DNA of 64,000 bases, taken from positions 1,858,001 to 1,922,000 of the forward strand of contig CAIIXF020000006.1 in the NCBI GenBank assembly GCA_903813345.2. The letters run 5' to 3'. Source of the DNA: Owenia fusiformis (lineage: Eukaryota; Annelida; Polychaeta; Sabellida; Oweniidae). A program made the position numbers and the translations under genes. Below are positions 12,061 to 33,013 of this stretch, one piece after another. Numbering within the stretch: position 1 is the stretch's first letter; the number at the start of each line of letters is the position of its first letter. Below the pieces are notes generated by a model. That model did not search any database. It was given only the letters and a program-made list of their open reading frames with translations, and was not told where the DNA came from.

Positions 12061-14640
12061 TAGAGGAGATAGGGGCATTCTCGGCCACGGGGCATTCCCG
12101 GACAAACCCTTGGTATCCGGTGCAAATCTGGGACAAAGTTAGAATTTTTACAATATATAGCACCACATCTAGCCTATAATATGATGTGTCTAATACAAAG
12201 TTTCAATAAAGAAACCATATAAAACAAAGAATTATTGAAGATCGTCCGACAATGCCCCGTGTCCGAGATTACCCCTTAGCCCAGATCTAGGCTAGACTGG
12301 AATTTTCAGTGAAATTCTGAAAACAAATCCAAAATATTCTTGTTCTATTATTATTAACTGATTTGATCAGTTTTCAGGGGTTTAAGCGCTCACCTGTTGC
12401 AAAAAAAACGTTTGAGTTGTTCCACAGTCTGTCTAAATTCACGGGAAATCAGCTACGTAGATAGTAAACGTCCAAAAACACATTTTATTTTAGATTTATT
12501 TATTTTGATGAATTTTGAATGGACGCGGTTTTCGATTCTCTGATTGGTCAACAATCAATTCATACTGCGGTGCTGCCACCTTTCAATAATATTGACGCTT
12601 TACTCTAGACGAAATGACTTTTGGCTAATGTTCATTCGAGATTCGAGAGTAATTCCCCGGGCTGAAAATATGCTTGTAATGCGCAGTTGCCCACATGCAT
12701 TTGCATAACAAGAATGTATTTATGGATGGATTTCCCTTGGAGGAAATTTTTACTTCATCATTTTAGAATGAGGTCAATTTGTATCCAAATATTTTACCCA
12801 TATGTTTAGTAACATCATGGGCTTTCAACTAAAGCCCATGGTAACATCCAGCTTGGAATAAAATCAACATGGTTTTAGGCCCTGTGGCTTTAGTATTCCG
12901 AGCATCCAGTTACTGAAGAGCTTGTTAGTCATGATTAAATAGAAGCAGCAGCTCCAATAATGGAGTAAGAATTCCTCACTTCAGCAATCAGGACGTTATC
13001 GCTGGGTATACTCCGGGGGTATACTTGCTCATGACTGAATAGCTTTTCAGTAACCAGATGTTACTATTTCCATACTGGTAAAATATTTGAAATAAGAAGG
13101 GGCAGCATCTTCTCACCCAGGTCCATTGAACCCCCCCCCCCCTGGCCAAAACATCTTTCAAAATCATGCAGTTTTTCATCATTCTGAGCACTTTTTAAAG
13201 GGTGACGCATATCGTTTAGCAAATCGAACGCTCGTTTCTGGTGTTGCTCACCGTTTAGTATAAAAGGCCCGATCCCGGAATAATACTCAAGGGTTCACAG
13301 GTTCGAGCTCGTTGTGTCAACACCTCTAACTGTTATATAGCATAAGTATATTATAGATCGTCACACATTTATAAAAGGGTGATTTTTATTTTGACAAATC
13401 AATTCCACATTTATGGGTGAAGTTTCAGGATCTTCTATTTGTGTATAATAAGGAAAAATTGGCATCTAAATTTCCCCATAACGTAATAGCACACAGCTTG
13501 GCATATGAAATATCCTACAAATGAACCAAAGCAAGACAAACCGGTTTCTAATACAAGGATTTATATTGGCTGTTGTACATGTATTCTTTGAACGCAATCA
13601 CTCTTTGGATAACGTTTTCAAAATCGTTATAAACGGATTACTTTATCTCAAAGACAATTTCAATAAACTGGATTTTACAGAACTCCCCTTATTTCTTAAA
13701 AATGGACTGATCCAGTTGATTCGCCTGTAGCCGCCATATTGTTTTTATACGGGATGCTAATCGGAACCCTTTAAGTGATTTTGGCAATTTTTAGACCAAA
13801 ATTGTCCGAAGTTAACCCCCCTGGAATTTTTCAAAAAGTGAACCCCCCTGGCTACAGGCCTGTCAACTGTTGCAAACATTTTCCTTATTACCGTTATTAT
13901 GATGAATTCCATTTGGTCTTTTATGATCAACATGTGTGCATGTCATCATGTTAAACATCATGTCAAAAATAAAATTATTATAAATAAATAATTGTTTGTA
14001 AATAACTCTTTGTATAATTAATGTTAAAAACTTTTCTTGAACATGTTGAAAGAATGAAGTAAAGATAAACAATTAAAAACCCAATGACATGCTCATATTT
14101 GATAACTGAGAAGTTGCATACTGTACTTCTACTTAATTTAGTGCTACTTACTTTGGCCGATTTCTGTTTTGAACATTTGGTGGCTACTTAATTTGGCAGA
14201 CTTGCAATATTAAAATGCACAAATTGTACTCATTTACAGAGTACTAAAATTACCCTTGAATTTGGTGACGACTTAATTTGGCGGACTTGAGCAATTTAGT
14301 GGATCCGCAAAATTAAAACAGCTGCCAAATTAAGTTGAAAGCCTACAGCTGTATGGGATTATGGGAGTGATACTATAATACAGATATAATAATAAAAACA
14401 AAACTATATATATTTTCATACATAATGTATTTTTTCCTCCCTTACTTTCTTGCACACAAGTTTTCCTTGCATTGTTTCTATCGCATGTCTACATATTTAC
14501 ACCTTTAACATGCTATATACTGCTTTATTTTGGCACTTATTTTCTGCATTGCATTTTTGCAAACTGCTTTCATTTCAATAATGAATCATACATCACTCTA
14601 ACCAGAACTTAAATCAAAAGTAAAATAAACAAGGCATTAA
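12061..14640. other. Spacer without supported genes; contains one CATGGGC palindrome
   Basis: The longest open frames lack splice-site or family support. There is a poly-C tract at about 13132-13142. Around 14140-14345 a block with repeated acttaatttggc(a/g)gac motifs in both orientations looks like transposon debris. Confidence 0.45.
12809..12848. mobile_element. CATGGGC palindrome, copy 1, with direct repeats
   Basis: CATGGGCTTT (12816-12825), spacer caact, AAAGCCCATG (12831-12840), flanked by GTAACATC at 12809-12816 and 12841-12848. Direct repeats around a minimal palindrome resemble a transposon excision footprint or an extremely short foldback element. Confidence 0.75.
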
Positions 14641-14650
14641 CATGACAAAA

Positions 14651-16236
14651 TGTCACCACCTAAAACAATTTGGTCAATTTAAAGCAAGTTGGAAAATTGA
14701 GAAGGTCATTAAAGGTCAAATGTCAAATGTAAAGTCAGATTTGAATTTCTGAGAACATGTAGATGATTTTGAAAAAAAAAATTAGTCGATTTGAAGCAAG
14801 TTGAAAAAGACCTTTTTGACCTCTTTTGACCTTGAGAAGGTCATTGAAGGTCAAATGTCAAATCTAAAGTCATATTTGAATTTCTGAGAACATGTAGATG
14901 ATTTTGAAAAAAAAAATTAAGTCAATTTGAAGCAAGATGAAAAAATACCTTTTTGACCTTTTTTGACATTGAGAAGGTCATTGAAGGTCAAATGTCAAAT
15001 CTAAAGTCAGATTTGAATTTCTGAGAACATGTAGATGATTTTGAAAAAAAAATTTAGTCAATTTGAAGCAAGTTGAAAAAAGACCTTTTGACCTTTTTTG
15101 ACTTTGAGAAGGTCATTGAAGGTCAAATGTCAAATCTTAAGTCAAATCTAAAGTCAGATTTGAATTTCTGAGAACACGTAGATGATTTTGAAAATTTTTT
15201 TTAGTCAATTTGAAGCAAGTTGAAAACAGACCTTTTTGACCTTTTTTGACCTTGAGAAGGTCATTAAATGTCAAATGTCAAATCTAAAGTCAAATTTGAA
15301 TTTCTGAGAACATGTAGATGATTTTGAAAAAAAAAATTAGTCAATTTGAAGCAAGTTGAAAAAAGACCTCTTTGACCTTTTTTGACCTTGAGAAGGTCAT
15401 TGAACGTCAAATGTCAAATCTAAAGTCATATTTGAATTTCTGAGAACATGTAGATGATTTTGAAAAAATTTTTTAGTCAATTTGAAGCAAGATGAAAAAA
15501 TACCTTTTTGACCTTTTTTGACATTGGGAAGGTCATTGAAGGTCAAATGGCAAATCTAAAGTCAGATTTTGAAGGTCAAATGTCAAATCTAAATTCAAAT
15601 CTAAAGTCAGATTTGAATTTCTGAGAACATGTAGATGATTTTGAAAAAAAATTTAGTCAATGTGAACCAAGTTACAAAAAATACCTTTTTGACCTTTTTT
15701 GACATTGGGAAGGTCATTGAAGGTCAAATGTCAAATCTAAAGTCAGATTTGAATTTCTGAGAACATGTAGATGATTTTGAAAAAAAAATTTAGTCAATTT
15801 GAAGCAAGTTGAAAAAAGACCTTTTTGACCTTTTTTGACCTTGAGAAGGTCATTGAAGGTCAAATGTCAAATCTAAAGTCAGATTTTGAAGGTCAAATGT
15901 CAAATCTAAAGTCAAATCTAAAGTCAGATTTGAATTTCTGAGAACATGTAGATGATTTTGAAAAAAAAATTAGTCAATGTGAAGCAAGTTGAAAAAAGAC
16001 CTTTTTGACCTTGAGAAGGTCATTGAAGGTCAAATGTTAAATCTAAAGTCAGATTTGAACTTCTGAGAACATGTAGATGATTTAGAAAAAAATTGAAGTC
16101 AGTCTAAACAGTATTTGTTAAGTTATAGGAAGTTGTAAGAAATTGTTACAGACGCCGGACGCCAACCTCCAACCACCAACCGCCGTCGCAAAAAAACGGA
16201 GACCATAACAATATGTCACCACTTTTGGTGGTGACA
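14651..16236. mobile_element. Tandem-core non-autonomous element, about 1.59 kb
   Basis: Starts TGTCACCACC and ends GGTGGTGACA. The core holds ten copies of a repeat marked by gagaacatgtagatgatttt (first near 14750, last near 16056) spaced 117-181 bp, most about 135 bp; the longer spacings come from an extra gaaggtcaaatgtcaaatct block. After the core come a gacgccggacgccaacc segment and a terminal hairpin (TATGTCACCACttttGGTGGTGACATA, 16213-16238, arms of 11). A core of tandem repeats plus a 3' hairpin recalls pearl/Helentron-associated elements, but the symmetrical TGTCACCACC ends could equally mark a TIR element. No protein is encoded. Confidence 0.8.
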
Positions 16237-16239
16237 TAA

Positions 16240-17570
16240 TAAAAATGGAAAAATCAGCACACTTCTATGTCAAATTAAAGAAGTATACAGTATAATTGGT
16301 ATTTCTCATAATTAAGCAAAATAATACATAAAGAAAAGTATAATATAAGCAAACTGAAAGCAAAAATGAAAACAAAACTTTATCAGCATGGGATAATAAC
16401 AACCATGCTAATTAAATGAAAATATTTGAATTGATTATGTACAAGTACATGTCATTATTAAGGTTGAATCATTATATTTTGTTCTAGACCTAGATCTTCT
16501 TAACCCATGTAATCTCAACTTGATTCATTTTATTTTACACGTATTTAAAAGCAAAATTAACACAGCTGAGCCCTAAAACATTTAGTCCATCTAAACCCTC
16601 AACATACATGCATATTATATTTTCAAACCACATTTGATTCTTCACTTTTTTATTTGGTAATATTTACCAATAAAATCCAAAATCGTCTTTTTACAAGATT
16701 TGAATCCCCTAGGTTTAATCACAAGACATTATTCTTTTCTGAAAGTCGACGACCATGATTTACTGATTTAAAAGTTGCCATATCAAATCAAATTGGCAAA
16801 ATTGCCTAGTGCCTAAATAACAATAGTAGTACAATAAACTTCAAAATTGAAAACAAAAGTGTAATAGCACATGTGCATCTCCTTTGAAGTATCCCCTTGA
16901 TCAGATTCAGTCTAGTGATCAAATCAACTTGACATTGCCACCATTCAGCCATTTGATGTAAATAGTTTTCTGAACTACGGTACATGTGAAATGTTAAATA
17001 AATTCTAAGCCTAGCAAGCTTCCAAAACAATTTGGAATTAATAAGCACCACATATCATAATATCAGGCATGCAAAACTAATTCTTAAAATCTATTTTGTA
17101 GTTGCAATATTGTGCTCCACTTTTTCTTCACACGCATAAAAAAGGCCTACAAATCATTTATCAAAGAAATTGTTCCCAGACCAGCCTTAGCTTGATATAA
17201 AATACTAAATCACATTTAACTCATTTTTTGAATTTCAGTTCTTAATTTTATCAGTTTTACTCCTGCCTCGTTGCTGTAATGAGCAATTTATGTCCCTTCA
17301 GTTGTGTGTACAGCAAAACATGAGACCCATCATATACAATACAAGATAATCACCATCCTACCACAGGTACAAGGACATTCAGTCTCACAATACATCAACT
17401 ATGTTTTTATGTTGTATATAAATAACTGTTCCAAGATGACCTCTATTTCCAGAGGGCAGAAATGGATTCACATAACACACAGTTTACATTCAGATTTGAG
17501 AGGAGGATTAAGCCCAGAGTTCAGAGATGACACACGCTTATAATGTAAACCTGTATTGAGATGACCCACG
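16240..17570. other. Spacer, no feature recognised
   Basis: AT-rich. No splice-bounded coding frame, RNA gene or bounded repeat seen. Confidence 0.45.
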
Positions 17571-17579
17571 TCTCTGATT

Positions 17580-17627
17580 GGTCAAAACATGGGCTTTCAA
17601 CTTCTAATTGAAAGCCCATGGTCAAAA
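17580..17627. mobile_element. CATGGGC palindrome, copy 2, with direct repeats
   Basis: CATGGGCTTTCAA, spacer cttctaa, TTGAAAGCCCATG (17588-17620), flanked by GTCAAAA at 17581-17587 and 17621-17627. It keeps the longest inverted arms (13 bp) of the family in this window. Confidence 0.75.
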
Positions 17628-17629
17628 TC

Positions 17630-19500
17630 AACAAACAAAAAATTGCAGATTCAAAATTTTCTTATAACACTTCGAATAATATTATGTTAATTTCTGGCGT
17701 GTTAACCAATGTTATTTCACATCAAGATAAAGATGTAAGGAGTATGCTTAAAATAATTAAAACATCACAACGACGCACTATATTCGAAAACTAACTGGTG
17801 AGAATTTGAGAAAACGAAGGTGGTACGCAAGAGACATATTATGTCAGTCATCGCTAAAACTCTGGGGCTTTCCCTCCTCTTATTCAGATTTATATCAATT
17901 GATTACATTACAGAACATGTTTCAAGAACAGACTTTTAATTCAACAATTGAATTCAGGCAAGACTAAATCATCATTTATAGATGGCAGACCACGACTGTC
18001 ATTTTTACACCTCTTCAAAAGGATTGGCTCCCAGGGTTCCCACTCAATATTCTGATGTCATGACTTGTGATTCAAAAATCAAATTCAAACAGCTACCATT
18101 TTGTTCAAAAATCTTATTTCCAAACAAAAAATTCCAAAACACACAAGAAGTGATCGAGATATTGGTTACAATCTTTTGGATAGCTGATTATGAATTTAAG
18201 TCAGAGTTATCATATCAGAAATAACGACATTCTGACATTTTCATTGTTGGAAAATATATAATTGTATCCCTGCCCTGAGCCAATCCTCCTTGCCTCTTCA
18301 GTTATAAAAAGATGGCTAAATCTGCATATAACCCTATTCGATTTAAAAAGAATGATACCTTTTACATGCCCTGTGTTTTAGTTTGGCTAATTACATGCAT
18401 AATGGAACAAATTTGGTCATTTTTTACCAGAACACCTTGTAGACTCAATCTGTTAAGACCAGCCATAAAACAAAAAGGATGGATTGGTATACATAATCCC
18501 TTATTTAACAACTACATTTTTCCGAGACCAATAATTTGCAGATAATAATTCTATTTTCCAGTATAATTACCATTCATGCAGTACATATTATACATTCAGT
18601 CTCACAATATATCAACTTTGTTGACAGTGGTTTCATTAACAGCAAGCAAGGCAATCTACTCCCATTTGTTTTTACCCAAATTTCCAGCATTTTTTAGGAA
18701 TGTTAGATTTATAATTTCCTATAATTTTGCGTGTTGTTTTCATAGCGTTCTGTCTGAAATTCTATGAATCCCCAAGTTTTGTCTTCATACTATTTTGGCT
18801 AGGCTAATAGATATACACATCTATCTGGTATGTTATTGCACCAATATAGAACATACACTAAATGCTCAGCACCTCCAAGAATGAATACATACTACATCTC
18901 ATAAGTCAGAGAGTAGTTTTGGCAATAATTTTGTTTCTGAGATGCTCTTGCACTTCAATTAAAGGAAGAATCCAAGACAGACAGTTGCAACTTTCCCCAA
19001 ATTTACGCATTCTTAATGTTCGATTCTATTTTAATAACTGCATCATTTGATTTGATCATTTTAGATGGTTGAGAACACATTCTGTGGTTGATTGCAACAC
19101 CCTGTATCGTATTCTGCCTTTAAAGGCCCAATCATTTTTACAATGTTGATCTGGACATAAAAGAAGTATTTCCTGTTTTACAAAAGAGAACTTCCTTTGC
19201 TTTTGTCTATTAATTTTCTTCCTTTTTGTGCTACAGTTTAGAGTAAAGTTCCAGGAATTGGACATAATTTTGAAATATTTAAGGCATAATGTACACAAAA
19301 TACTAGCAAATTGAATACACAAGCTATCAAATTGGCGAGCACATTCCTGAAACTTTCTGACCCCACTGTAAATGCACATCTACTTAATAATTCAAACCAA
19401 GTTTCACTGTTTGATTTTGTTCACATCATTTACTTTTTAAAACATGATGATGACCATTTATAATTCTGACGCTACTTGTACATGCACCCTAATGAGAATG
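17630..19500. other. Spacer downstream of the first ELAV-family gene
   Basis: No independent gene supported. The part nearest 19500 is presumably 3' untranslated sequence of the ELAV-family gene, but I could not place its polyadenylation site with confidence. Confidence 0.4.
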
Positions 19501-20637
19501 TTACTGTTTGAATGACACTTGAAGAGGCTTCTGTGTGAACATATAACCATTGAGAGCTTGCACTGCTTCACATGCCTCCTCATAATTCCTCATGGTCACA
19601 AAACCATATCCTTTGCACTGTTCTTTGTCCTTGTCAATGATAGTGTTCACTTTGAGAATCGCCCCATAGGGTGAGAATAATTGGAAGAGTGTTGTATCAG
19701 TGGCATCTGTGCCAATGTTATACACAAACAGTACGTGTCCAGCTGCAGATTCAGTACCAATCATAGCAGTATGAGTAAGGGGAAGAGGCTGGGATAGGGG
19801 GTTGAAACGGTTAGTATGTAGGCCTTGTGCAGCCATATTGGTTGTGTTTGCAGCACCTCTCATTGGACCTCCTAAGCCATACCCTCTCCCCCGAGCTGTA
19901 GTTCCTTGATGAAATCCACCCCTCCCTGCCCCTGCCCCAAACAATTGTTGTTGGTTTCCATAGTAACCAGTATCTGCTGCATAGCCCCCTCCCCCTCCTA
20001 CAATAGGGAAGTTACGCTGAGGTGGTGGACGCACTTTTTTTGAGTTATCCTGCGCAAAACTCACAAGAAGGGGTTCCTTAAAGCCTGCTGGCTGAGTGTT
20101 GTTTAGAGCCTCAAGGGCAGCCTCAGCTTGCTTTCTGTTATCATACAATACAAATCCAACTCCTTTAGGTAACTGGGTTATGCTATCACGTACCAACCTT
20201 GATTGAACCACATCACCAAAGTTGGAAAACAGATCATGTAGCATTGTATCATCAAAGTTACGTGGAATATTGCGAATGAAGAGATTAGCTCCCTTTGTAT
20301 CAGACCCATCACGAGAGTATGCTACCTTAAGAGTTTTATTTTGTAACTTAAGGCCATTTAGGACATCAATGGCCTGTGCTGCATCAGCAGGGTCGTGATA
20401 GTCCACAAATCCAAACCCAAAGCTATAGCCAGTCTCCTTATCTCTCATAATCCGCGTTTGCTTCACTGGACCAACACTGACAAACATAGACTGGAACTCC
20501 CGATCAGTGAGAGTCTGGGGTAGATAGTTCACTATGAGACACGTCTTGCCTTCACTGCTTTTGCCATTTGTATGGGGACCACTGGTGCCTGGTTTCATCA
20601 GTGGTTGAATGTCTTTTTTAGTCCCCGCATTCATCAT
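19501..20637 (-). CDS. ELAV/Hu-family RNA-binding protein, three RRMs, single coding exon
   Basis: The 378-residue protein has the ELAV/Hu order RRM1-RRM2-hinge-RRM3. RRM1 spans about 31-108 (RNP2 LIVNYL, RNP1 FGFGFVDY), RRM2 about 117-197 (LFIRNI, KGVGFVLY) and RRM3 about 300-378 (LFVYNI, KGYGFVTM). The hinge, 198-299, is rich in Gly, Arg and Gln. Family members bind AU/U-rich RNA and control splicing, stability or translation; that role is inferred here. The start is the first of two adjacent in-frame ATGs; a stop precedes the frame shortly upstream, and an acceptor-like tgcag at 20666-20668 hints at a 5'-UTR intron. The whole coding sequence is uninterrupted, whereas many animal ELAV genes have introns in the coding region. 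A paralogue lies 5.8 kb upstream on the same strand. An exact orthologue (ELAV, Rbp9 or Sxl-like) cannot be named. Confidence 0.95.
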   Translation of the reverse strand: MMNAGTKKDIQPLMKPGTSGPHTNGKSSEGKTCLIVNYLPQTLTDREFQSMFVSVGPVKQTRIMRDKETGYSFGFGFVDYHDPADAAQAIDVLNGLKLQNKTLKVAYSRDGSDTKGANLFIRNIPRNFDDTMLHDLFSNFGDVVQSRLVRDSITQLPKGVGFVLYDNRKQAEAALEALNNTQPAGFKEPLLVSFAQDNSKKVRPPPQRNFPIVGGGGGYAADTGYYGNQQQLFGAGAGRGGFHQGTTARGRGYGLGGPMRGAANTTNMAAQGLHTNRFNPLSQPLPLTHTAMIGTESAAGHVLFVYNIGTDATDTTLFQLFSPYGAILKVNTIIDKDKEQCKGYGFVTMRNYEEACEAVQALNGYMFTQKPLQVSFKQ

Positions 20638-20639
20638 GG

Positions 20640-21154
20640 TAATATAACGTCAATGCCTCTCTCCACTGCATCGTGAAAAAATTAAAAATCATAAAAAATT
20701 ATTTGGTAAAAAATAAATAAGATGTAAAAATTGATAAACAGCTGGCTGTTGACATGGTAGGACCTGGATGTACCTGAATGAAACAAGAAAACAATATTTA
20801 GACAATTTCAAAATTCAACAAGGAAACAGATGCAGTCTAATTCAAGTTAAGGAACTACAGTTTTACCAAAATGCTAGACAGTAAATGCATCCCAAAGATG
20901 TAATTCCACATTTCGTTTTGATGATGGTATATTTTGTAATTTTAAACTTTTTAAGACAGGAAGGAACAGTGACAGGAAGACTGATAGGTTAGATTGCGGG
21001 TATGCTTTCATGGCATGTCTGTTCAAATGAGTCCTACACACCATAGAATTTGCTTAAAGCATCAAATAGAAAGTAAACCGATTATTGAAGAAACACGCAT
21101 TTTGTTTGAATTTAAAATATTTTCATTTTGACGAACCAACAAAATTTTAAGTGC
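20640..21154. other. Upstream region of the first ELAV-family gene
   Basis: Contains a candidate 5'-UTR splice acceptor (complement 20666-20668) and AT-rich sequence. No TATA element or first exon can be assigned. Confidence 0.35.
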
Positions 21155-21645
21155 AGGGTGACCCCAAAAAAAACCAGAACACTCCAAAAATGAAATAATT
21201 TCTTTAAAATACATTTTTAAATGAGAGCTTCATTTTTCATATAAAAACTACAATCTATGGATGACAATGTGAAACCAACTTTGTTACATAGCATTCAATG
21301 TTTTTCTTTTTATGGTCAATTAAAAAATGTGCCCACTTTTAAAAGAACAAAAAAAGATTTTCGTAAGATTTTCGTGTCAACCAAAAGGTTACCGTCTTCT
21401 TCGGAAATTTCTTCTGAATTTCTCATAAATCTCAAGATATGATTTTGTCTCAATGTTGATTTTCCTAAAATTGACACATTCTAAGATCATCCATGATATC
21501 CCAAATAATCAATATTGTGTGACAAATTTGATATCATATTATCATCCATAGATTCTAGTTTAGATAAAAAATTAGCTTGATGGGATAGGTATTTAAGAAA
21601 TTATCACATTTTTAGAAGGTTCTGTTTTTTGAGGTCACCCTGTAC
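21155..21645. mobile_element. Mariner-like MITE, TIR CAGGGTGACC, about 490 bp
   Basis: Begins cagggtgaccccaaaaaaaa and ends with the inverse ttttttgaggtcaccctg. The right flank is TA and the left TG, consistent with a decayed TA duplication. The CAGGGTG...AAAAAA terminus is common in Tc1/mariner elements. The open frame inside is not a transposase. A lone similar end (cagggtgagccaaaaatg) lies near 4488. Confidence 0.65.
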
Positions 21646-21649
21646 CCAG

Positions 21650-23261
21650 GGGTTCAACAGGCACATGGTGCTGTTCACTCCCTCTACTGCTAGTTTTTCT
21701 CATTTTTCTAAGTTACATACTTCCCTTCTGAGTGTCTGTTGATACCCTTTGTAAAAAGAAACGTGAAATAACTGGGATGCATTCATTGTCTACCAATATG
21801 AAGACTTTGTCACTTGGGTTATTGTAACAATAGCAAAAGAACAAAGACAATACTTCCTGATGAACCATATGCTGCCGTGGTACTATGTTATTCAAGTAGA
21901 CAGAACTACTATGCATTTTTGATCAAAATATTAAAATGTGACTTGACCTCAATGAGGATGTTATGAAAATGACAATTTCTTCAACTTAAGATCTGTGATG
22001 CTGTTACACTTTACAACTAGATGAGAACAAGGACAACTTCAATCTCATTTGAGTGACCTACTTGAGATCATTATTATATGAATACCGTTATGTGGCACCT
22101 AATACTCCCTCTTGGGGGGGGGGTCATAGCCACTACAACCAGTAAATATGTAACATTGATTTTAATAAAAAATAAATAAATAAAAGTCAATTGCTGCTAC
22201 TGCACTAAAATCATAATTTTATTTTATATTAGCTTTATCCATGCAGATTTTCAAAATTGATTACACACTAGAATAAAAAAAATAAAAATAAAATATGGGT
22301 TTCTTGCAATCCCTTCCTAATAAATTTCCACCTACTTACCACACTATATGAATCTGAATTTACAATTTCTTTTAATAAAAAAAATAGTCGTAAAATAAGG
22401 GAGACTGGCAAAATGGGCCCCTCTATTTTTCTCTGGCAACAACCTACTATAGCTGATTTGGCACCAATTTAAAAGATCATCATAAAATAGGGGAGACTGT
22501 GGCAAAAAAAGATTAGAATCGAGTGTACTGTTTTGTCACAGTTTCCAACGTTGATTTTTCTTTGAACTGGTGCCTAATCAGATATACAGGTTTCCCAGAG
22601 AAATACCGAGAGTCCCATTTTGTCGTCATTGCCAGGATAATTTGACAGGAAAACATGAGCATTCCATTCTCTCCTATGATTTTTTTAAGTAGGTGCCATA
22701 TCAGCTTTACAGGTCCTTACCATGGTAATTACAAACATGCAACCTTCTATTTGATTATGACAGTTTCTCGCGAAACAAAATACATTGAAATCAGACCCTG
22801 GAATAAGCTGCATATATTTATGTATTAAATGAAAGCGTGTATGAGTGTTGAATTTTTGTTATGGATTTTGCCACTTATTGTTACCTGAAGATCATCCTAC
22901 TGGGGTTAAAGACAATCAACAAACATAATGGTTTGTATTCTATTTTAGTGGTCATCTCCCTCAGAGAAACTCTGTAATATGTCATGATGAACTTTCATCT
23001 AGATTTATTGGCAGCAAGCAAAAATAATCATTGGTCAGAAAATATCAGAGAAACTTGGGTAAATTCCCTAGAAATATGGTTCATAGCATTGGAAATATTA
23101 AACACCAACATGGTTTAGCCTTGCACACTGTAAAAAGTTAACTTCATCTTACCCCCCCCCCCCCCCAAGTTCTTGATTTTATTTTTTCTTGCTTCGTGCT
23201 AGCAAGATAATTTTCAATTTCTGCCCAAAAATGGAATCATAAAGAAACAAAAATCCAAATG
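21650..23261. other. Spacer with transposon debris
   Basis: Poly-G (about 22116) and poly-C (about 23153) runs and two similar blocks beginning ataggggagactg (near 22400 and 22489) are present; no gene is supported. Confidence 0.4.
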
Positions 23262-23689
23262 CACTGGTGATCCACTCGATTACGCTGGTTACCAAACGGT
23301 TCGTTTTGGTAACAAAATGTCGGAACATCGAAGGTAAGATTTTTCTTTTTTCCTTATTTCACACGTTGTAGGCAGAATTTCCCACGACATTTTTAACATA
23401 AAGCATAAACGGTTTTTCGAAAAACAGTTAAGATCTGCACTTTTAACCCAAACCGTTTATGTAACTTAAGTGAGGAATTAAATCGACGATTCTGTTGTCT
23501 TCTGAGCTATTTTTTTCGCAAACATGTACATTTTCTAAAACATATGATGCTGATATACATTTGTGAAAAAAAACGTTGTTGGGATTCTGCCTACAACATG
23601 TGAAATAAGGAAAAAAGAAAATCGCACCTTCGACGTTCCGACATTTTGTTACCAAAACGGTTCCAGCGTAATCGAGCGGATCACCAGTG
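23262..23689. mobile_element. Foldback MITE with ~110-bp terminal inverted repeats
   Basis: The ends CACTGGTGATCC and GGATCACCAGTG continue inward as matching arms (ttttggtaacaaaatgtcgg, ttccttatttcaca, ttgtaggcagaat on both sides in opposite orientation) for about 110 bp. Flanks carry AAATG on both sides (23257-23261 and 23690-23694), a plausible 5-bp target duplication. No coding capacity. Confidence 0.85.
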
Positions 23690-24449
23690 AAATGCCTAAA
23701 TATTTTCAATCACATATTTTAATGTGAATCAGATTGTATATAATCTCCAAGAATGTAAATCGTGCAAAAAAACTGAGTTCATAAACAAGAGACTGGAAAT
23801 CTAATTTAAAATATATTTCCAAAATTGAAGAAAGCTTTATCAACAAAGCAACTACATGTAAATGGAGAATTGGTCGACTACATGGAATACAATTATAATT
23901 CCTAGAACACACATTGCATGTAATGTAACTTATGGCTCATCAAAATTAGATAGAGTTGGTTTTACCCAGTAAATTAATCAATCAATATATAAGCTATAAT
24001 CCTATCAGTTTAGAATAATTGAGATCAAGAAATAATACCTCCTAGTTTTGAATCATGTCGCCTGTAGTACTCTTTCGTACCAACCTAGGCTACGACTTCT
24101 TTCACGAAACTATTGCAAGCATTCAATTGTATTTCATAATTTTGATAGATATACATGTAGCAACATCATTCTGAGACAGCTGAACATCAAACAATCAGAT
24201 TATATATTTAAGAAATAGACCCTTGTTTGTTAAAAGTATAAAGATAGCATGTGATTGACTTGATGGAAAACCTTGAAATTAGTCATTGCAAAAGATCAAT
24301 GGAATAGTATTGAAAAATGCTATTCAATTATTCATTGTGCTAGTATTTACAGTTGAAACTTTCATGAATATTTCATCATGATAGTAAGCAATAACTGTTG
24401 TTAACAATGACAGAAATCAAATATTTCATCAATACATGTGATGCGTATA
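23690..24449. other. Spacer, nothing recognised
   Basis: AT-rich, without a supported exon, RNA gene or bounded repeat. Confidence 0.45.
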
Positions 24450-24611
24450 CAGTAAAACCTGTATATCCAAACACCTCTCAATATGAACACTTTTAATGGG
24501 CCCCACCTTTGTTATCTCCCATTAACTCACATACAAAGAAACCTTGAAATATGAAATCTGCTAATCTGAACACTTTTTGGCTGGTACCTTCGGATTAGAC
24601 AAGTTTTACTG
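24450..24611. mobile_element. TA-flanked MITE, TIR CAGTAAAACCTGT, 162 bp
   Basis: Same family as 5965-6401: cagtaaaacctgtatatcc at the left, cggattagacaagttttactg at the right, TA on both flanks. Shorter than the 5.9-kb copy by internal deletion. Confidence 0.8.
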
Positions 24612-24823
24612 TATACGCAATGTTTATCACACCAATTTATGGTTCACTTCAGCTAAAAGTCATTCCAGGTGTGCAATTGACAATTGAAATGTGAACTATT
24701 CTTCATAAAACACGGATGTCATTGACAACTGTTCAATTCTGTACTTGTTTGAGATCGTATCAAGATGCCATATGTATGATGAAGGAAAAAGTTGGGTTTC
24801 ATTTTGATATAGCACCTTCACCC

Positions 24824-24973
24824 ACGGTAAAACCTGTGAATATATCTGAACACATCTCTTATACGACCACTTTTCAATGTGAACACACCTGTTTAAGACT
24901 TCCCTGTTAAAAAATCCTAAAAACACCTGCCAATCAAAAACAAGTGGCACTCACATTAAACAGGTTTTACAGT
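24824..24973. mobile_element. Diverged copy of the CAGTAAAACCTGT MITE
   Basis: cggtaaaacctgtgaatat at the left pairs with ttaaacaggttttacag at the right, with the family's aatgtgaacac block inside. Ends and flanks are eroded. Confidence 0.65.
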
Positions 24974-24979
24974 TCTATG

Positions 24980-26471
24980 TAAGTTCATCTCTCTGTTTAT
25001 ATATATTAAAGAAATGAATAAAGTAGGTTTTACTGTGTTTTGACATTATGACTACATTATTCTATACATCAAATATTTTAGCCTTCCCCTTCACAATATT
25101 GAGAAGTGATATTTAGAAGCATGATCCTATCTAGTATATTTCCTGGGGTAAATATATATATGAGGTCTTTAACAAATAATGCTGATTCTGACAGTGCCAT
25201 TTAAATGCCCCAATAACTGCAACTTCACAAGGAGCAGTAGTTACAAAATGACTTTTACAAAGAAATTACAGATATTAGGAAGTCATTTGAAGTTACAAAG
25301 AAATTACAAATATTAAGAAGTCATTTGTCAAAAATATCAAATGAGCCAGGCCACAGGAAAGGGGGTCTTATCACAGATTTTTTCAATATTCTGATTTTTT
25401 GTTTATCTTAAAAAGCACAAAGAAACCTTTCAAATGAGCAATGGCTTATGTTCTAACAATTTTTCCTTGCATATTTGGACCAAAAAGTTTCTGAATTTAG
25501 CACATTTTCCTCTTAATCGTGGGCACATTTTTGGCTCTGTAGCACAATTTTAATTTTTGCAATAAGACCAGTTTTCCTATGGCCAGGCTCAAATATTGAT
25601 TCCTTACACGACAATAGAGCCAAAAGACAATTTCATCTTGAATCACAATTCAAAATATTTTCAAGAAATGATCTACATGTACTTTATACTTGCAATTCAA
25701 TGACAGGCAGCACTATTTATCAATGTGATAAAAACATTCTACCATAATGATAGGCTTATGTAGATACATAACATATACTCTACAGAAACCCAAGAATAAT
25801 ACAACTGACTGATAACATTTTCTTTTGACTGTTTTAGTTCTAAAAGACATGTTTTCTTTGACTCTACATTAAATTGACTCTTATTAGGTGAACTTAACCC
25901 GCCATTCACCTCTGTATGCTAAGACATTCTAAGAGTCAAGTTCAATAGAAACCAGATGACAGAACAATTACCCAGACAGTAAACAGGAAGAGATAATTTG
26001 GGGGACCATTTCTAGAAACAAAATATATTGTTTGTACGGTATGCCTTTCTCTTTATGTGTTCCTTTCTAGGATTTTACAAAAATGTTATCCTTCAAATTA
26101 ATCCTTGTAATTTTTAGAAATGGCCCCTGAAAAACAAATATACTGTACTGTAGATTTATTATAACCTCTAAATCTGCATTATATTAAGCTTAAAATTCAT
26201 GATGATCTTAAACTACAATGTAAGTAGTGAAAAATAATTATTGTAGAGAATACTAAAATAATCAGCTATGCTTTATTTTGAGTGAATGAACTGTCTCTGG
26301 GTAACATACACAGGCCTAAGAGGCTGGATTCTAATATTCAGATATTATATTACATACATACTCTCAGGTCACATTCTTCTTTAGACAAATAATATGTAAT
26401 GTTTCAGAATTCATGTCTGGGATATCTTAGACTGTGAGTCACTGGTACAGTATATCAACCTTCACTTGAAT
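24980..26471. other. Spacer and probable 3'-UTR of the second ELAV-family gene
   Basis: A short direct repeat (ttacaaagaaattaca... agtcattt, about 25253 and 25296) is the only structure seen. The part next to 26471 is probably untranslated mRNA of the ELAV-family gene. Confidence 0.35.
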
Positions 26472-27809
26472 TTATTTCTTTTTGTCAGATTTGAATGAGA
26501 CTTGGAGAGGTTTAGCAGTGAACTGGTATCCATTAAGAGCTCCAACTGCAGCCTCTGCTTCGTCATAATTCCTCATTGTTACGAACCCATAGCCTTTACA
26601 TATTCCCTTTTCTTTGTCCATAATGGTATCTACTTTCAATATAGCCCCATAGGGTGCAAATAACTGCCATAGTGTACTATCCTGGGCATCACTACCAATG
26701 TTATACACAAACAGAATATGGCCCTCATCTGTAGCTGCAGGACCTGGGGTATATGGTGGGTAAGATTCGGAGTAAACATCAGATTTCAAGGTTGATGCTG
26801 CCATTGGGTTGTAGCGATTGTACGCCATGCTGCTTCTCATTGCACCACCTCCAGCTGCCAGTCCTCGTCCTCTACCACGTGCCCTAGTGGCGCCACCTAG
26901 TGCACCACGACTTGGTGCTGGGGCAGTAGCTCCATAACCACCTCGTCCTTTGCCTGTACCTGAACCATAGAAGCTGTTGTAGCCAGTGTCACTATAATCA
27001 GTGTCTTCATAATATTCACTATAACTGGGGTCTTCATATTCAGAGTAATCAAAACTACTAAGGGGAGCAACACCGCCATATCTCCCCGCACCTGCTCCAT
27101 ATCCCCCTGCTCCTGCACCATATCCTCCAGCACCCGCTCCAAATCCCCCTGCACCTGCTCCTCCGTATCCTCCTCGGACACCAAATCCTCCAGCGGCACC
27201 ACCGAATCCTCCAGCACCTCTCCCTCTACCTCTGGCTGCAGCCCCTGGAGGAGGACGTACCTTTGCTGCACTATCTTGGGCAAACTGGATATTCATTGGA
27301 CTACTGAATCCATCAGGACATATGTCGGTAAGTCCATCGATGGCTGCCTGGGCTTGCTGACGCTTATCATAGATAACAAATCCATCTCCCTTGAAACGCT
27401 GGGTGTTGGTGTCTCGGACCATTCTGCATTGGATTAATGAACCAAATGGGCTGAAAGCTGCCCGAAACTGATCTTCAGTTACATCAAGTGGAATATTACG
27501 TACATATAAACGAGCACCTTTGGAATCAGCATCATCTCTAGAGTATGCAACTTTCAGTCGCTTATGTTGCACAGGCAACCCATTGAGAGTTTCTATGGCC
27601 TTAACAGCATCCATAGGACTAAGATACTCGACAAATCCATAGCCATAACTATATCCACTACTTTTATCTCGCATGATCCTTGTATTTTTCACTTCTCCGA
27701 TCGCTTGGAACATTGAGGAAAACTCGGTATCAGTCATAGTTTGTGGAAGATAGTTGATAATCAATTTGGTTTTTCCCCCAATGGAACCATTTCCATTGTT
27801 GTATGCCAT
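26472..27809 (-). CDS. ELAV/Hu-family RNA-binding protein with long Gly-rich hinge, single coding exon
   Basis: The 445-residue protein is a second three-RRM ELAV/Hu member: RRM1 about 13-90 (LIINYL, YGYGFVEY), RRM2 about 99-179 (LYVRNI, KGDGFVIY, where Asp in RNP1 is unusual) and RRM3 about 363-441 (LFVYNI, KGYGFVTM), ending in a Lys-rich tail. The 183-residue hinge has three low-complexity parts: RG/GFG/GYG repeats (AGAGGYG-type, about 190-246), an acidic Tyr/Ser block (DYSEYED, about 254-272) and more RG repeats (about 287-316). Such a hinge may support RNA granule formation or arginine methylation, which is inference. The sole ATG fits the family's short N-terminus; an acceptor-like tttatcag at complement(27865..27872) suggests a 5'-UTR intron. 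The paralogue at 19.5 kb is on the same strand, and divergence in all RRMs says the duplication is old. Confidence 0.95.
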   Translation of the reverse strand: MAYNNGNGSIGGKTKLIINYLPQTMTDTEFSSMFQAIGEVKNTRIMRDKSSGYSYGYGFVEYLSPMDAVKAIETLNGLPVQHKRLKVAYSRDDADSKGARLYVRNIPLDVTEDQFRAAFSPFGSLIQCRMVRDTNTQRFKGDGFVIYDKRQQAQAAIDGLTDICPDGFSSPMNIQFAQDSAAKVRPPPGAAARGRGRGAGGFGGAAGGFGVRGGYGGAGAGGFGAGAGGYGAGAGGYGAGAGRYGGVAPLSSFDYSEYEDPSYSEYYEDTDYSDTGYNSFYGSGTGKGRGGYGATAPAPSRGALGGATRARGRGRGLAAGGGAMRSSMAYNRYNPMAASTLKSDVYSESYPPYTPGPAATDEGHILFVYNIGSDAQDSTLWQLFAPYGAILKVDTIMDKEKGICKGYGFVTMRNYDEAEAAVGALNGYQFTAKPLQVSFKSDKKK

Positions 27810-27839
27810 TTTGTGGTGCAGATTGTTGTCGTAGATACC

Positions 27840-28660
27840 TCAACTTGTATTTGTTACTTGTACACTGATAAAAAAAATGAAAAAAATAATTTTACAATTA
27901 TTGTTTGAGACAAAAGATTTTTCAGCTTCTAAAATGTGGTACTGCAGCAACTGTGATGGATAAAAACATTTAAAATAAATGAAAAAACAGAAAAATATAT
28001 TTATATACAAATATTGATGTAAAACACCGATTTCCTTCATCCTTAAGAAAATCATCAGCCACCGCAACTGTGAGAGAAAAAGCATTCAAAATAAATGAAA
28101 AAACAGAAAATTACTTTTCTACAAATGTTTTGTAATTTTAATGCAAAACACTGACTAACTGTCATTACTTGACAAAAAGAAACTTATCTGCGCCATTAAA
28201 CAAGGTTCCTAAAAATGCGAGGACAGAATGAACTATAACTGTCCTCACAAAAAAATTACAAAAAATATTCAAATATTTAAAAATAATGAGTCATGTCTAT
28301 AGATAATGTAACATGAATCCATTCGTGTAACATCAACATCTAAAAACCTCCGTATTCTGTTGTTCAGAAAAAAACACAGCTGAAAAAGCATCAAATAAAT
28401 GAATAAATACAAGAACAAACAAAATGTGTACAAGTACAGTACCTACTACAACAATCCTCACTGTGTGGCATAGTGGTGAGGCAGTCTTCAAAAATATATA
28501 ACATTAAAAACAAAAACAATTTTCTCTCATTGGGAACATTGGAGGAAGACGTCCATCTTGTTGTCTTCGTTACCAATCAGCCATAAGTCAGCTATCAGCA
28601 AAATCCATCATTTTTAATTTAGATAAAAAAATTAATACTGAATAATTACCAGAACAACGG
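27840..28660. repeat. Upstream region with ~114-bp local duplication
   Basis: gcaactgtga followed by aaataaatgaaaaaacagaaa occurs near 27948 and again near 28062, with a weaker third copy near 28375. Otherwise AT-rich. A first non-coding exon of the ELAV-family gene may lie here but cannot be placed. Confidence 0.45.
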
Positions 28661-28679
28661 CAACGCCAAAGCGTAGCGA

Positions 28680-29811
28680 ATCCCATCGAACAGAAATGGC
28701 TGGCATTTTTACAAACGAATAGCAAATATCATAAAACAACACACCAGAAAGGCCACCATTTTCAAAATGGTTGCTCACTAGCCAAGTTGTCATCAGAAGA
28801 AATAATATGCTTTTAAGTAGCCACCTCTAAAATTTTGAAAAATCGCGCCCGTACTTGTAAAATTACACACATAAAAATGGTGGCCATTTTCCAAAATGGC
28901 CGACTACTCCCCAAAGTTTTATTAGACAATGTGCCATGCTTAAAGTATTCACATATCAAATATGAACAAAATCGCTCCACTACTTTTCGAGTTAAAGTAA
29001 AATACGTTAAAATGGCGGCCATTTTTCAAAATGGCCACCGTCTACCAAAAGTGTCATTAGAAATAGACAGTGTGCCATGCTTATAGTATTCACATACCAA
29101 ATATGAACAAAATCACTCCACTACTTTTCGAGTTATAGTAAAATACTTTAAATTGGGGGCCATTTTTCAAAATTTTTTTCAAAATGGCCACCTTCTACCA
29201 AAAGTGTCATAGGACAGTCTGCCATGCTTATAGTATTCACATACCAAATATGAACAAAATCGCTCCACTACTTTTCGAGTTAAAGTAAAATACGTTAAAA
29301 TGGTGGCCATTTTTCAAAATGGCCGCCTTCTACCAAAAGTGTTTTTAGACAGTGTGCAATGCTTATAGTATTCACATACCAAATATGAACAAAATCGCTC
29401 CACTATTTTTTGAGTTATAGCAAAAATCGTAAAATGACGAGTAAAGGCCGCCATTTTTCAAGATGGCTGCCATGTGCTTCTTTAATATCTACATTTGTAG
29501 CATTAATAATGTCCTTTATATTTTTTTACATTTAAAACATATTGCTAATACAGTTTTACATATTACACCTAAATTACTGTAAAATCGGCACTAAAATGGC
29601 CGCCATTTTGAAATGAGCGGCCATTTTGAAAATCGGCTTTCGAGCAGAACTTCTACCCCCATAGGGTATATGTGTACAAAATATGAACAAAATCGGGCCA
29701 ATGGTATTTGAGTTATTGCCCGGACGGACGGACAGACGGACGGATGGATGTACGTACGGACGGACGGACGGAGGCGTTCCCTATATCCCTCCGAACTTCG
29801 TTCGATGGGAT
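28680..29811. mobile_element. Tandem-core non-autonomous element with GGAC microsatellite, about 1.13 kb
   Basis: Subterminal inverted repeats ATCCCATCGAAC (28680-28691) and GTTCGATGGGAT (29800-29811) enclose about 4.5 copies of a 135-148-bp unit with aaaatcgctccactactttt and a ttcaaaatggcc palindromic block. A ggacggacggacagacgg-type tetranucleotide run lies near the right end (about 29720-29772). Inverted ends, tandem core and a tetranucleotide tract match the architecture described for pearl elements of bivalves, later grouped with Helentron-associated elements. No protein. Confidence 0.8.
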
Positions 29812-29819
29812 AATAAAGA

Positions 29820-31530
29820 GTAATATTGTGTGTTCGTTTTAATATATTTACATATTGGAGGGAGATGACCATATATTGCATAAAATGCTTCAATTATTTT
29901 ACAAATCCCCCCCCCAGATTTTTTTGTGTGGCATCATAATTGTATTTAAGAATTTTTAGTTTTAGCTTGTATTAATTATAACAGATTTCAGTTAACATTT
30001 AAGGATTTTATTCTTTGTAAGTACATTTTGAACTTTGGAACTTTTAGGTGAATTTTTGAACCTTGCAATATATTGAATTAAACATTTTCTAGGATTTTCA
30101 AAAGTTTCTATTCAACAACCTTTTCCGAATGTGGTAACATATTAACACTCTCAGTAACAGGTCAAAATTCAGATATAGTAGCAATAAAATCAACTAACTA
30201 AATGTAAAGATTGATTTTTGTGCATGCAACATATGCTTGTGGTGGGAGGTGATTAAATGCAATGCCATCAGACTACAAAACCAAGGTTTTTTACTGAAAT
30301 CATAAATATTATTTATAACAATATCTTGCCTCAATTGCAAAGTCCCAAAAGCTTACCTTCAAATAGAAAATTTATAATCGCTTTGAAAGGAGGGCAATGA
30401 ACATTCTCTATATAAGTCTTAATTCATGTAAAGCCTATTATACAGTGAAATTAGGCAGAGGATTTTATTGAGGTATACTCAGGTTCGATTCCAGGTTCGA
30501 TTCCATGTTGGTACAATTTTTTTCATTATGAAGTTTGTTCTCTGAGGTCCGGATATTATGTACACAATTTTTTAAAAATTCATGGGCTCGCTCCAACGCT
30601 CAACCATCCATGTTTAATGAAATTAATCACTTGTATTGGCTTTACTATATTCACAAGCTTACAGCATACGGGGAATCCCATTTGAAGGTGGCAAAAAGTA
30701 TGAAGGAGACTTTGGGATGAAGAAAATGATCTTGTTGAATTCTAGATACAGCACATCATGATGCAGTTTATCAGGAATGTAGGGACATCAGCCCGGGGAC
30801 ATCAGAGAATACACTTCCAAATCTATTGCCTATAAGATTCCAATGCCTATTTTTAGGATTTTCAAATGACAAGAGGCACAAAATATTTTTTCAATTTTTT
30901 GCAAAAACTTCCCCTTCAAAAGTCCTTCATTTGTATCAACGTTTTTTTAGGCTAGCCTCCAATTGGGCATCACTAAATGTGACCTCAACACCATTCTCCC
31001 AAGGGCCTATTCTAAACATCAAAATCTTTACTGATTAGTAAAATTGAACAAGTATATGACTGATCCAAGTTGCCGCACCACGAAGGTTACTGAACCTTTA
31101 AAAAGCGAAATTTAGACTGAGGATTGAAAAGGTTCTAAGAACTTTTTTTCGGTAGACCGGAAGTAAATTTACGAGTCGAGTAAAAAGTGATAATGTTCTT
31201 TTTATGAAGTGGGAAAGTCAAAACAGTTCTTATAGGAAGTCAAAGTAAGCATTCAAGGATCATTTAGAAGCATTTAAAATCAAATCCACTGCAAAAGTGA
31301 AATGAATAAAATCGTTGTATGTTTCCTTCTTCGTTTTCTTCGCGGACCTCAGAGAAGACACTTCCGGTTTAATAATCGGTGAGTTTATCGATCAAAAAAT
31401 ATATTTTTATGAATATCTCCGGTATCTGCTTTAATATAGTATGTTAATTTGTGTTGATTGTTAAATTACAAAACAGGTTGAGTAAAAATATGTCAAAATC
31501 GTTTGATCTCGTCCCAGAAGCAATATTTTG
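29820..31530. other. Spacer, no gene supported
   Basis: Holds a poly-C run (about 29907) and an exact short duplication (caggttcgattcca, near 30480). Open frames here lack splice or family support. Confidence 0.45.
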
Positions 31531-31554
31531 TCATTTCCGTCACTTAGAATTCCT

Positions 31555-31715
31555 TTAAGGCTGGCTCTCTAGCAAAATTGGCAATCAAAATGCTAAAGAC
31601 CCTATTTAAGGCTTTCTAGCCGAAATGCCATAGAACCTTAAAATTTAAGGCTCTTTAGCCAAATGGGTTACCAAAATGCTAAAGAGCCTAAAATTTTAGG
31701 CTCTCCAGTCACTGC
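31555..31715. repeat. Cluster of inverted AAGGCTCTTTAGCC motifs
   Basis: The motif appears as aaggctggctctctagc, aaggctttctagcc, aaggctctttagcc and, inverted, gctaaagagcctaaaattttagg. About 160 bp can fold into several alternative hairpins. Origin unknown, probably a foldback element. Confidence 0.5.
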
Positions 31716-31954
31716 CTTATTTTTTACATCGGGCTGCGCATGCGTATTGGAGAGAGTGGATGGATCGGTAAATATCGTGACAAACAGCTTTTGAACTTCT
31801 CTCTTCTATTACTAAAGGTAAAGTATACCATTGATAGTGCTGACTGTGCTTCCCTGTCATGTCTGGCTGGGTTTCACTTGGGTAACCTGAGAGTTGGAGG
31901 ACATAGAACATACTGGTACAGTTTTGACCATAAATAAATGAGTCATGGATTTAA

Positions 31955-31990
31955 TGAAATCATGGGCTTTCTGTAAGCCCATGCTGAAAT
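31955..31990. mobile_element. CATGGGC palindrome, copy 3, with direct repeats
   Basis: CATGGGCTTTC, spacer tgt, AAGCCCATG (31961-31983), flanked by TGAAAT at 31955-31960 and 31985-31990, the right copy offset by one base. Slightly more eroded than copies 1 and 4. Confidence 0.65.
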
Positions 31991-32756
31991 GAGAATTTCC
32001 AGTTCCAATAAGAAAATTTTCAAGAGGCCGTATATCAGTGGATTAGAGTACAGAAAATGTAAAAATATATCCCCTACAATTTGAAGACAAAAGATAAACA
32101 TTATGGAAGCAAAGGTGAAGTAAAAATGTTCACTCATATTCAAATAAAACATCTTTTCGTTCAATCTAAAAATGATTCTTTTTTGTTTGAATGAAAAATT
32201 ATCAAAAAATGAAAAATACAAACTGAATGTGATCCTTATTAGAGTCTATTGAGGAAAATGAAAACCAAATTCATATTACAAATAGTCACTAAACATCTCT
32301 TCATCTTTTTTTCAAGTTGTCACATCTTATTCTAGAAGAAATATGAAGATATTGCACAATACATACCGGCTTCTATTATTCCATCAATTTTAGGAACAAC
32401 GTGATCAAGATGGCAGTCAGCCTCGTTTTGATTCCAAATTGGTTAGTTCCCTTGATCTTTTATAGATGGCAGGATACGTAATCAGACACAAAATCAAGAC
32501 AGCACACAACACAACACGGTCAATATCACCCGGATTCAGTTCTTTTTTGAAAAGAGCTGAAAAGTGATGATCAAACTCCCGACTTTTGACTGTGGACCGG
32601 ATAGATAAATAACCAATCTTTGCTAATTGTACATCAGGTCTAATTAAGGTTCAATGACTGCCTAGCCTAAGTGCATTCCTCAAAGGTTCATGATCAAACC
32701 CGAGTGCACGAGATGCATAGGATCGAGAGCTGAATTATGGTTCATCTTTGAGGCCA

Positions 32757-32932
32757 GGTGTAAAAGGGTAGGAGGTCCTATCAACTTATGGTCCTACTCT
32801 CCATTGATTTATATGGTGACCTAAATACAACTCTTCCCCTCATTATCTTATACGCAATCAGGGCCAGTAAGGGCCGTTAAGAAAGGGGACCATAATCACT
32901 GGGGGACCATCATCTCTTTCACACCGGGTATG
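32757..32932. mobile_element. CCGGTGTGAAAG-family MITE, copy 1
   Basis: About 175 bp, CAGGTGTAAAAGGG at the left and ctttcacaccgg at the right, in the orientation opposite to the copies at 34301 and 42917. The interior (ccattgatttatatggtgacc) is shared by all four. No coding capacity. Confidence 0.8.
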
Positions 32933-32976
32933 GAATCATTAATAAAATGAATTGCAAAATATTTTGCACAATATCA

Positions 32977-33013
32977 CTTAAACTATGGGCTTTCGAAAGC
33001 CCATGCTTAAACT
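32977..33013. mobile_element. CATGGGC palindrome, copy 4, with perfect direct repeats
   Basis: TATGGGCTTTC and GAAAGCCCATG meet with no spacer (32984-33005). Flanked by CTTAAACT at 32977-32984 and 33006-33013, a perfect 8-bp repeat if the T belongs to the target. The cleanest case in the window. Confidence 0.8.

Follow-up and report, generated by a model that had tools for sequence, protein, structure and literature searches.

The Drosophila P element is one of the closest known counterparts of the short palindromes analysed here, which lie in 64,000 nucleotides of DNA from the annelid Owenia fusiformis (assembly GCA_903813345.2, contig CAIIXF020000006.1, positions 1,858,001 to 1,922,000 of the forward strand; hereafter the window). 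The P transposase cuts 17 nt inside a 31-bp terminal inverted repeat (TIR) and leaves 17-nt 3′ tails, a stagger described as unusual and atypically long (PMC7776569). The products of end-joining consist of a target copy, the start of the TIR, a junction, the start of the TIR reversed and a second target copy (PMC2895639). Galileo, which belongs to the P superfamily, makes mostly 7-bp target duplications with the consensus GTANTAC (PMC4168063). Anopheles gambiae harbors P-derived miniature inverted-repeat transposable elements (MITEs) with 8-bp duplications and known autonomous parents, and the main text of that report does not contain the word footprint (PMC1562414). In rice, 94 putative excision events were obtained by aligning two genomes (PMC4423477).

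Four palindromes in the window have the layout of such end-joining products. With a probability of roughly 0.9, each of them is the scar of a short non-autonomous DNA transposon that inserted with a 7-bp target duplication and was later excised, its long-stagger breaks, apparently of the P type, being end-joined. The palindromes are the joined left and right ends of elements of 537-542 bp. As with Drosophila P, the TIR is 31 bp long and starts with CATG, its start would be left as a 3′ tail, the junctions show microhomology or templated filler, and the target copies are kept in the products seen (PMC2895639, PMC7776569). The sizes are 7 bp and 18 nt here against 8 bp and 17 nt there, and the Drosophila products come from the laboratory, whereas ours form a natural genome-wide set for which the transposase was not found. 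Galileo shares the 7-bp duplication and a palindromic target with a GT...AC core, but its TIRs are long, against 31 bp here, and the motif that we observed outside the duplication is unlike the Galileo pentamers (PMC4168063). The Anopheles MITEs resemble the Owenia elements in being short and non-autonomous with P-type TIRs (27-31 bp in their parents), but differ in the duplications and parents already mentioned (PMC1562414). The rice sites are likewise natural scars with deletions and filler (PMC4423477); here a single genome suffices, because each scar carries tags of up to 18 nt from both ends.

P-type scars are in this sense self-labelled, with up to 18 nt per end plus the target duplication. 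One assembly yields an apparent cut site, shows which targets were preferred and samples natural, inherited break repair on a large scale, with no crosses or second genome. In a literature search in which subscription journals were thinly covered, we found no description of a genome-wide P-type scar set in one genome, which is a weak negative. Three details are new here: the limit at 18 nt, a sister TIR in which nt 18 is not retained, and an excess of strict scars over the exact right ends counted.

Paired tips in the window and in the genome

We scanned the window for CATGGGC facing GCCCATG, allowing at most one mismatch per tip and a gap of 0-30, and requiring at least five of seven flank letters to be equal. 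Only the four footprint sites were returned from the 64 kb (Table 1), and 60 Markov-made control windows contained no site at a flank identity of at least 6/7. The inserts measure 22-33 bp, have CATGGGC tips and are each bordered by a 7-bp target duplication, exact at three sites and 6/7 at one. The sequence CATGGGCTTTC alone, at up to two mismatches, was in no excess over chance in the window (17 vs 13.95), so the signal of the window lies in the paired arrangement of the tips. Rfam gave zero matches in the window.

An earlier note, made from the sequence alone, had proposed the four sites, and direct reading together with the scan confirmed them at its coordinates. The flanking direct repeats that it described are present at all four, but each is 7 bp long, since the 8-bp versions in the note included the first tip base. 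Its 6-bp repeat TGAAAT at the third site is real, although it is properly a 7-bp repeat with one mismatch. The variable joints also stood, whereas the arm lengths had to be replaced by those obtained from comparison with intact ends. A fifth, decayed site at 44351 found no support and is listed last in the table.

Table 1. Footprints, target duplications and one unsupported site in the window
Feature	Positions	Description	Basis
Footprint 1	12816-12840	16 nt and 10 nt of two ends, overlapping by 1 nt	sequence reading, end comparison, window scan
Target duplication 1, left	12809-12815	GTAACAT	sequence reading, window scan
Target duplication 1, right	12841-12847	GTAACAT	sequence reading, window scan
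Footprint 2	17588-17620	15 nt of type A end (CAACT) + 18 nt of type B end (CAATTAGA), no overlap	sequence reading, end comparison, window scan
Target duplication 2, left	17581-17587	GTCAAAA	sequence reading, window scan
Target duplication 2, right	17621-17627	GTCAAAA	sequence reading, window scan
Footprint 3	31961-31983	11 nt + 9 nt of two ends, 3-nt filler TGT	sequence reading, end comparison, window scan
Target duplication 3, left	31954-31960	ATGAAAT, 6/7 against right copy	sequence reading, window scan
Target duplication 3, right	31984-31990	CTGAAAT	sequence reading, window scan
Footprint 4	32984-33005	11 nt + 11 nt of two ends (by eye); first tip base T, not C	sequence reading, window scan
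Target duplication 4, left	32977-32983	CTTAAAC	sequence reading, window scan
Target duplication 4, right	33006-33012	CTTAAAC	sequence reading, window scan
Fifth site	44351-44374	one arm, changed opposite tip, no flanking repeat; unsupported as footprint	sequence reading; absent from scan

The search was then extended to the 498-Mb assembly. The strict pattern CATGGGCTTTC-N{0,10}-GAAAGCCCATG occurred at 766 sites and its backwards control at 0. Individual matches were taken from the first 100 of 1009, 530 and 422 rows in the end-pattern searches, and from the first 50 of the 766 strict sites and of the 2315 sites of a loose pattern (7-nt tips with 0-30 nt between), nearly all of them on one contig, C1. 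We fetched 40 of the 50 strict and 34 of the 50 loose sites, omitting from the latter C1:672744 (chance-like core) and 15 others. Among the fetched loose sites, 25 had an exact 7-bp duplication and 4 had one at 6/7. When duplication lengths of 4-12 were tested at the 40 strict sites, an exact duplication was found at 7 only, in 24 of the 40, while 8 of the 40 belonged to one repeat with a decayed duplication. After removal of 7 of the 8 copies of this repeat, 60 fetched sites became 53 distinct ones. The earlier note had held that its reading would fall if longer elements were absent or the flanking repeats were at chance level; longer elements exist, and 7-bp repeats flank 45 of the 53 sites (38 exact, 7 at 6/7), whereas an exact match is expected by chance at about 0.0001 per site.

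The repeat just mentioned inflates any scar count, because it carries a frozen scar: about a fifth of the strict total stems from it (8 of the 40 fetched sites share its flanks). The 26-bp scar CATGGGCTTTCAATTGAAAGCCCATG, its duplication decayed, sits in this high-copy repeat (L058, L062-L064, C1:9688717-9698200 and 36 other listed places), which in one place is tandem at a spacing of 4,689 bp. The 40 scored of its 1097 candidate copies were 99-100% identical, and an empty-site test on these found the scar in 40 of 40 scored, with no empty copy seen. Some of the loose-pattern palindromes belong to sibling tip families, their arms reading, for example, CATGGGCATTC or CATGGGCTCTA (L106, L107, L111, L114, L115, L117 and L120). 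At these, the 7-bp duplication was exact at 6 of 7 sites and matched at 6 of 7 letters at one; it would seem, then, that scars were also left by related elements whose first seven bases are identical.

Source element and what its scars retain

Many non-scar matches to CATGGGCTTTCAACTAG, among the matches listed, were paired at a distance of about 540 bp. These pairs delimit intact copies, mostly of 537-542 bp, with the same tips and exact 7-bp duplications. The fetched copies have the 31-bp TIR CATGGGCTTTCAACTAGAAGGGTA[T/G]GCAACT, the consensus for the element is CATGGGCTTTCAA[C/T]TAGAAGGGTA[T/G]GCAACT, and the two ends form a 31-bp terminal inverted match at 97% identity; at 2 sites the TIR is followed by A or G instead of the C or T of the element. 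When a 542-bp copy was used as query against the genome, the best 40 of 686 first-look candidates were 98-100% identical and full length or one base short per end, whereas older copies showed 79-94% identity. The duplication was exact in 15 of the 17 copies whose two tips were found by scripts and 6/7 in the others (L027 and L130), and a copy nested inside another (C5:18604790-18605651) has a 7-bp duplication evident from its coordinates. The family has the features of MITEs, namely many similar short copies, TIRs and duplications, with 40 of 40 scored copies full length. Some copies have unlike ends, CAATTAG against CAACTAG, as at C1:7757542-7758083 (a B end and an A end). Genome-wide, 246 exact right ends were counted. 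The 766 strict scars, about a fifth of them in one repeat, suggest that resident copies undercount past activity, although the two patterns differ in strictness.

The longer copies fetched whole (L007, 5.1 kb; L026, 2.1 kb; L028, 1.4 kb; L097, 2.1 kb) consist of the 540-bp element with other DNA inside. No stop-to-stop frame exceeded 113 amino acids, which holds also for the 5-kb copy that contains nested inserts, and no family search was made on those frames. Of 16 orphan right ends fetched, 12 match the element widely and 4 (L087, L090, L095 and L096) match only its last 175-200 bp. These four may be truncations, inserts or longer relatives; their longest frames are repetitive-looking where judged.

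We then asked how much of the element remains where only one of its ends is recognisable. In 57 such one-sided ends, the element base was present at nt 18 in 49, and in these 49 nt 19 matched in only 11, which is the background level (P=2e-16 for nt 18 and 0.13 for nt 19, against 0.33). The set comprised 27 of the 100 listed CATGGGCTTTCAACTAG rows and 30 of 100 from the second end-pattern search, two of the ends being those of a single insert (L014); 38 intact and 105 two-tip rows of the 200 were excluded. That retained ends stop after nt 18 is an indirect sign of a long stagger.

The arms of the scars are also unlike each other in the manner of the intact ends. With C-type arms denoted A and T-type arms B, 53 scars in which one arm was at least 17 nt long and the other reached nt 14 comprised 45 AB, 6 AA and 2 BB pairs, against a random expectation of 26.3, 15.3 and 11.3. 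A T-type first arm was followed by a C-type partner in 34 of 36 cases, and a C-type first arm by a T-type partner in 14 of 20. Such pairing is what elements with a B end and an A end would be expected to give.

Junctions were compared at 85 of 105 sites, including 3 window sites; 20 sites with other tips were dropped, and rows without exact GCCCATG, 4 unfetched loose-pattern sites and 7 of the 8 copies of the scar-bearing repeat were excluded. Filler was absent from 68 junctions and present in 17. An overlap of at least 2 nt occurred in 30 of the 68 filler-free junctions, against 15% in simulated joins, and the commonest core (14 of 85) is a joint at the TAG common to both unlike ends. The fillers at C1:7174190 and C1:8247835 repeat letters of the TIR, as expected of templated filler. 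The 53 distinct sites contained 39 distinct cores.

The following course of events would produce these scars. A P-type transposase would cut one strand at the tip of the element and the other strand 18 nt inside, so that the first 18 nt of the element would remain on each broken chromosome end as a single-stranded 3′ tail. Because the two tails are alike and not complementary, the cell would have to trim them and anneal them at short matches (TAG, CTAG), or insert a few bases. The expected product of repair is a near-palindrome between two target copies.

One further insert, at C1:10337848-10337979 (L014), is 132 bp long; it begins and finishes with 18 nt of element end, is flanked by an exact 7-bp duplication, has a middle rich in simple repeats and is perhaps a scar with a large filler.

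Superfamily membership and alternative explanations

The anatomy of the element was compared with that of the P superfamily. The duplication, at 7 bp, lies within the 7-8 bp of P-type elements, and the TIR is near the 31 bp expected. In 46 targets (38 scars with an exact duplication, whatever their tip family, and 8 inserts, L007-L014), the duplication follows the palindromic motif GT-NNN-AC, with G in 24 and T in 35 at positions 1-2 and A in 36 and C in 19 at positions 6-7. Beyond the duplication, a T stands three bases before it and an A three bases after it. The genome also contains P-type RNase H genes (13 matches, plus 4 to the C-terminal part; PF21787, PF21789), one frame of which was confirmed by Pfam. 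A search for PF12017 found no match in the Owenia genome nor in any control genome and was hence uninformative. Among the P-type transposase genes (L003-L006, L016 and L017) are four near-identical copies (~99%), which point to a recent expansion; no CATGGGC tips were present in the stretches read. Since no transposase with these tips was found at the loci read, membership in the P superfamily rests on anatomy; it is likely though unproved, while the mechanism is well supported. The guess of a P-superfamily source in the earlier note is supported by this anatomy (long stagger, 31-bp TIR, GT-NNN-AC motif), but the duplication is of 7 bp as in Galileo, not of 8 bp as in P. Full elements with CATGGGC tips, for which it proposed to search, were found, but without a P-type transposase bearing these tips at the loci examined.

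A transposase from outside the P superfamily might have excised the element with a long stagger. This would agree with the lack of a P transposase with these tips at the loci examined, and with the values of 18 nt and 7 bp, where Drosophila P has 17 nt and 8 bp. We consider it unlikely, because the long stagger is described as an unusual, atypical feature of P (PMC7776569), Galileo, itself a P-superfamily element, agrees with the Owenia element in the GT...AC motif and the 7-bp duplication (PMC4168063), and P-type RNase H genes exist in the genome.

Several observations weigh against excision of a P-type element as the source of the scars. With up to 4 mismatches allowed, the 17-nt tip was absent at the 13 RNase H matches (11 loci of about 7.5 kb; the near-identical copies L003 and L005 with only 3.4 kb), two further P-type loci contained single, unpaired tip matches with 4 mismatches, and no autonomous element with these tips was found at the loci examined. 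Beyond their match, the four partial orphan right ends are unlike the element and each other, and no left end followed in the next ~5.2 kb of each. The loose pattern gave 728 sites in its control, and its 2315 genomic sites are therefore not taken as a scar count. Fewer than 6 of 7 letters were duplicated at 8 of the 53 scars. Finally, a match of at least four letters to the lost target copy was seen in 6 of 16 one-sided scars, which is not significant (shuffled mean 2.3, maximum 8).

The scars could also be internal deletions that arose in gap repair, by synthesis-dependent strand annealing, of elements that remained in place, rather than by end-joining of the emptied donor. Some places resemble partial repair. 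At C1:24645420-24645760 (L029), a flank is repeated 128 bp apart; after one copy come 22 nt of element end and other DNA, after the second a 34-nt scar, an arrangement suggestive of aberrant repair. To judge by its position, C1:47309135-47309262 is a short derivative. Gap repair would, however, give end fragments of all lengths, whereas the one-sided ends listed are retained no further than nt 18, and this makes it a very improbable source of the scars. The least probable explanation is an ultra-short foldback element, in which the palindrome of 22-36 bp itself transposes and duplicates 7 bp: the clean 7-bp duplications around palindromes and the recurrence of some cores at different places (the commonest in 14 of 85) would fit, but the cores are too varied (39 at 53 sites), the AAGGGTA stretch farther inside the TIR is missing from them, the commonest is a joint at the TAG shared by two unlike ends, unlike arms far outnumber the equal arms of a perfect foldback (45 of 53), and many places have one end only (27 and 30 of two sets of 100 listed rows). 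The abrupt stop at 18 nt, the way in which unlike ends are paired and the types of junction all fit the long-stagger excision that the earlier note had suggested.

Proposed position of the inner cut, and related copies

A sister TIR, CAAGAGAAGGGTA, has one base fewer before AGGGTA; 5 intact copies were present among 93 distinct listed rows, one of them with a changed motif. In its one-sided ends, nt 18 matched at the background level, in 9 of 37, while in those of the main TIR it matched in 49 of 57 (Fisher P=3e-9). These 37 remained after 7 duplicates, 5 intact copies and 51 two-tip-like rows had been set aside from 100 listed rows. A sister-TIR scar with full-length arms (L103) is composed of 17+17. 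Both observations agree with the prediction for a cut anchored inside the TIR. As the search pattern fixed nt 1-17, the comparison indicates a loss of nt 18 but does not place the cut exactly after 17. We regard it as evenly balanced whether the inner cut is positioned by a motif within the TIR, falling just before AGGGTA, and not by the distance from the tip, so that the stagger differs by subfamily. The predicted stagger would be 18 nt at CAA[C/T]TAGA|AGGGTA and 17 nt at CAAGAGA|AGGGTA. If this is true, the two TIRs amount to a natural mutagenesis experiment on P-type cleavage, accompanied by hundreds of independent break-repair outcomes in one lineage. Several of the listed sister-TIR rows also share the string CATGGGCTTTCAAGAGAGTCCATGATTGCAGTCTA, seemingly another repeat with a trimmed scar.

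Among the composite copies, L089 (C1:18.59 Mb) and L097 (C1:56.40 Mb) share an internal insert, located at an identical point in both and 95.5% identical over 690 bp, and this 2.1-kb composite version may itself have moved. A pair of ends 15 kb apart, C1:18578034-18593421, was partly read (L089, L129).

In the window itself, three scars, at positions 12816-31983, have two perfect tips; for 64 kb the genome average of the looser pattern is 0.30 (~10x). This possible local clustering is given as a remark only, because the window was selected by a reader. Positions 13877-13952 show a weak match (71-72% over 73-76 bp) to the interior of the 540-bp element and are perhaps a decayed relative.

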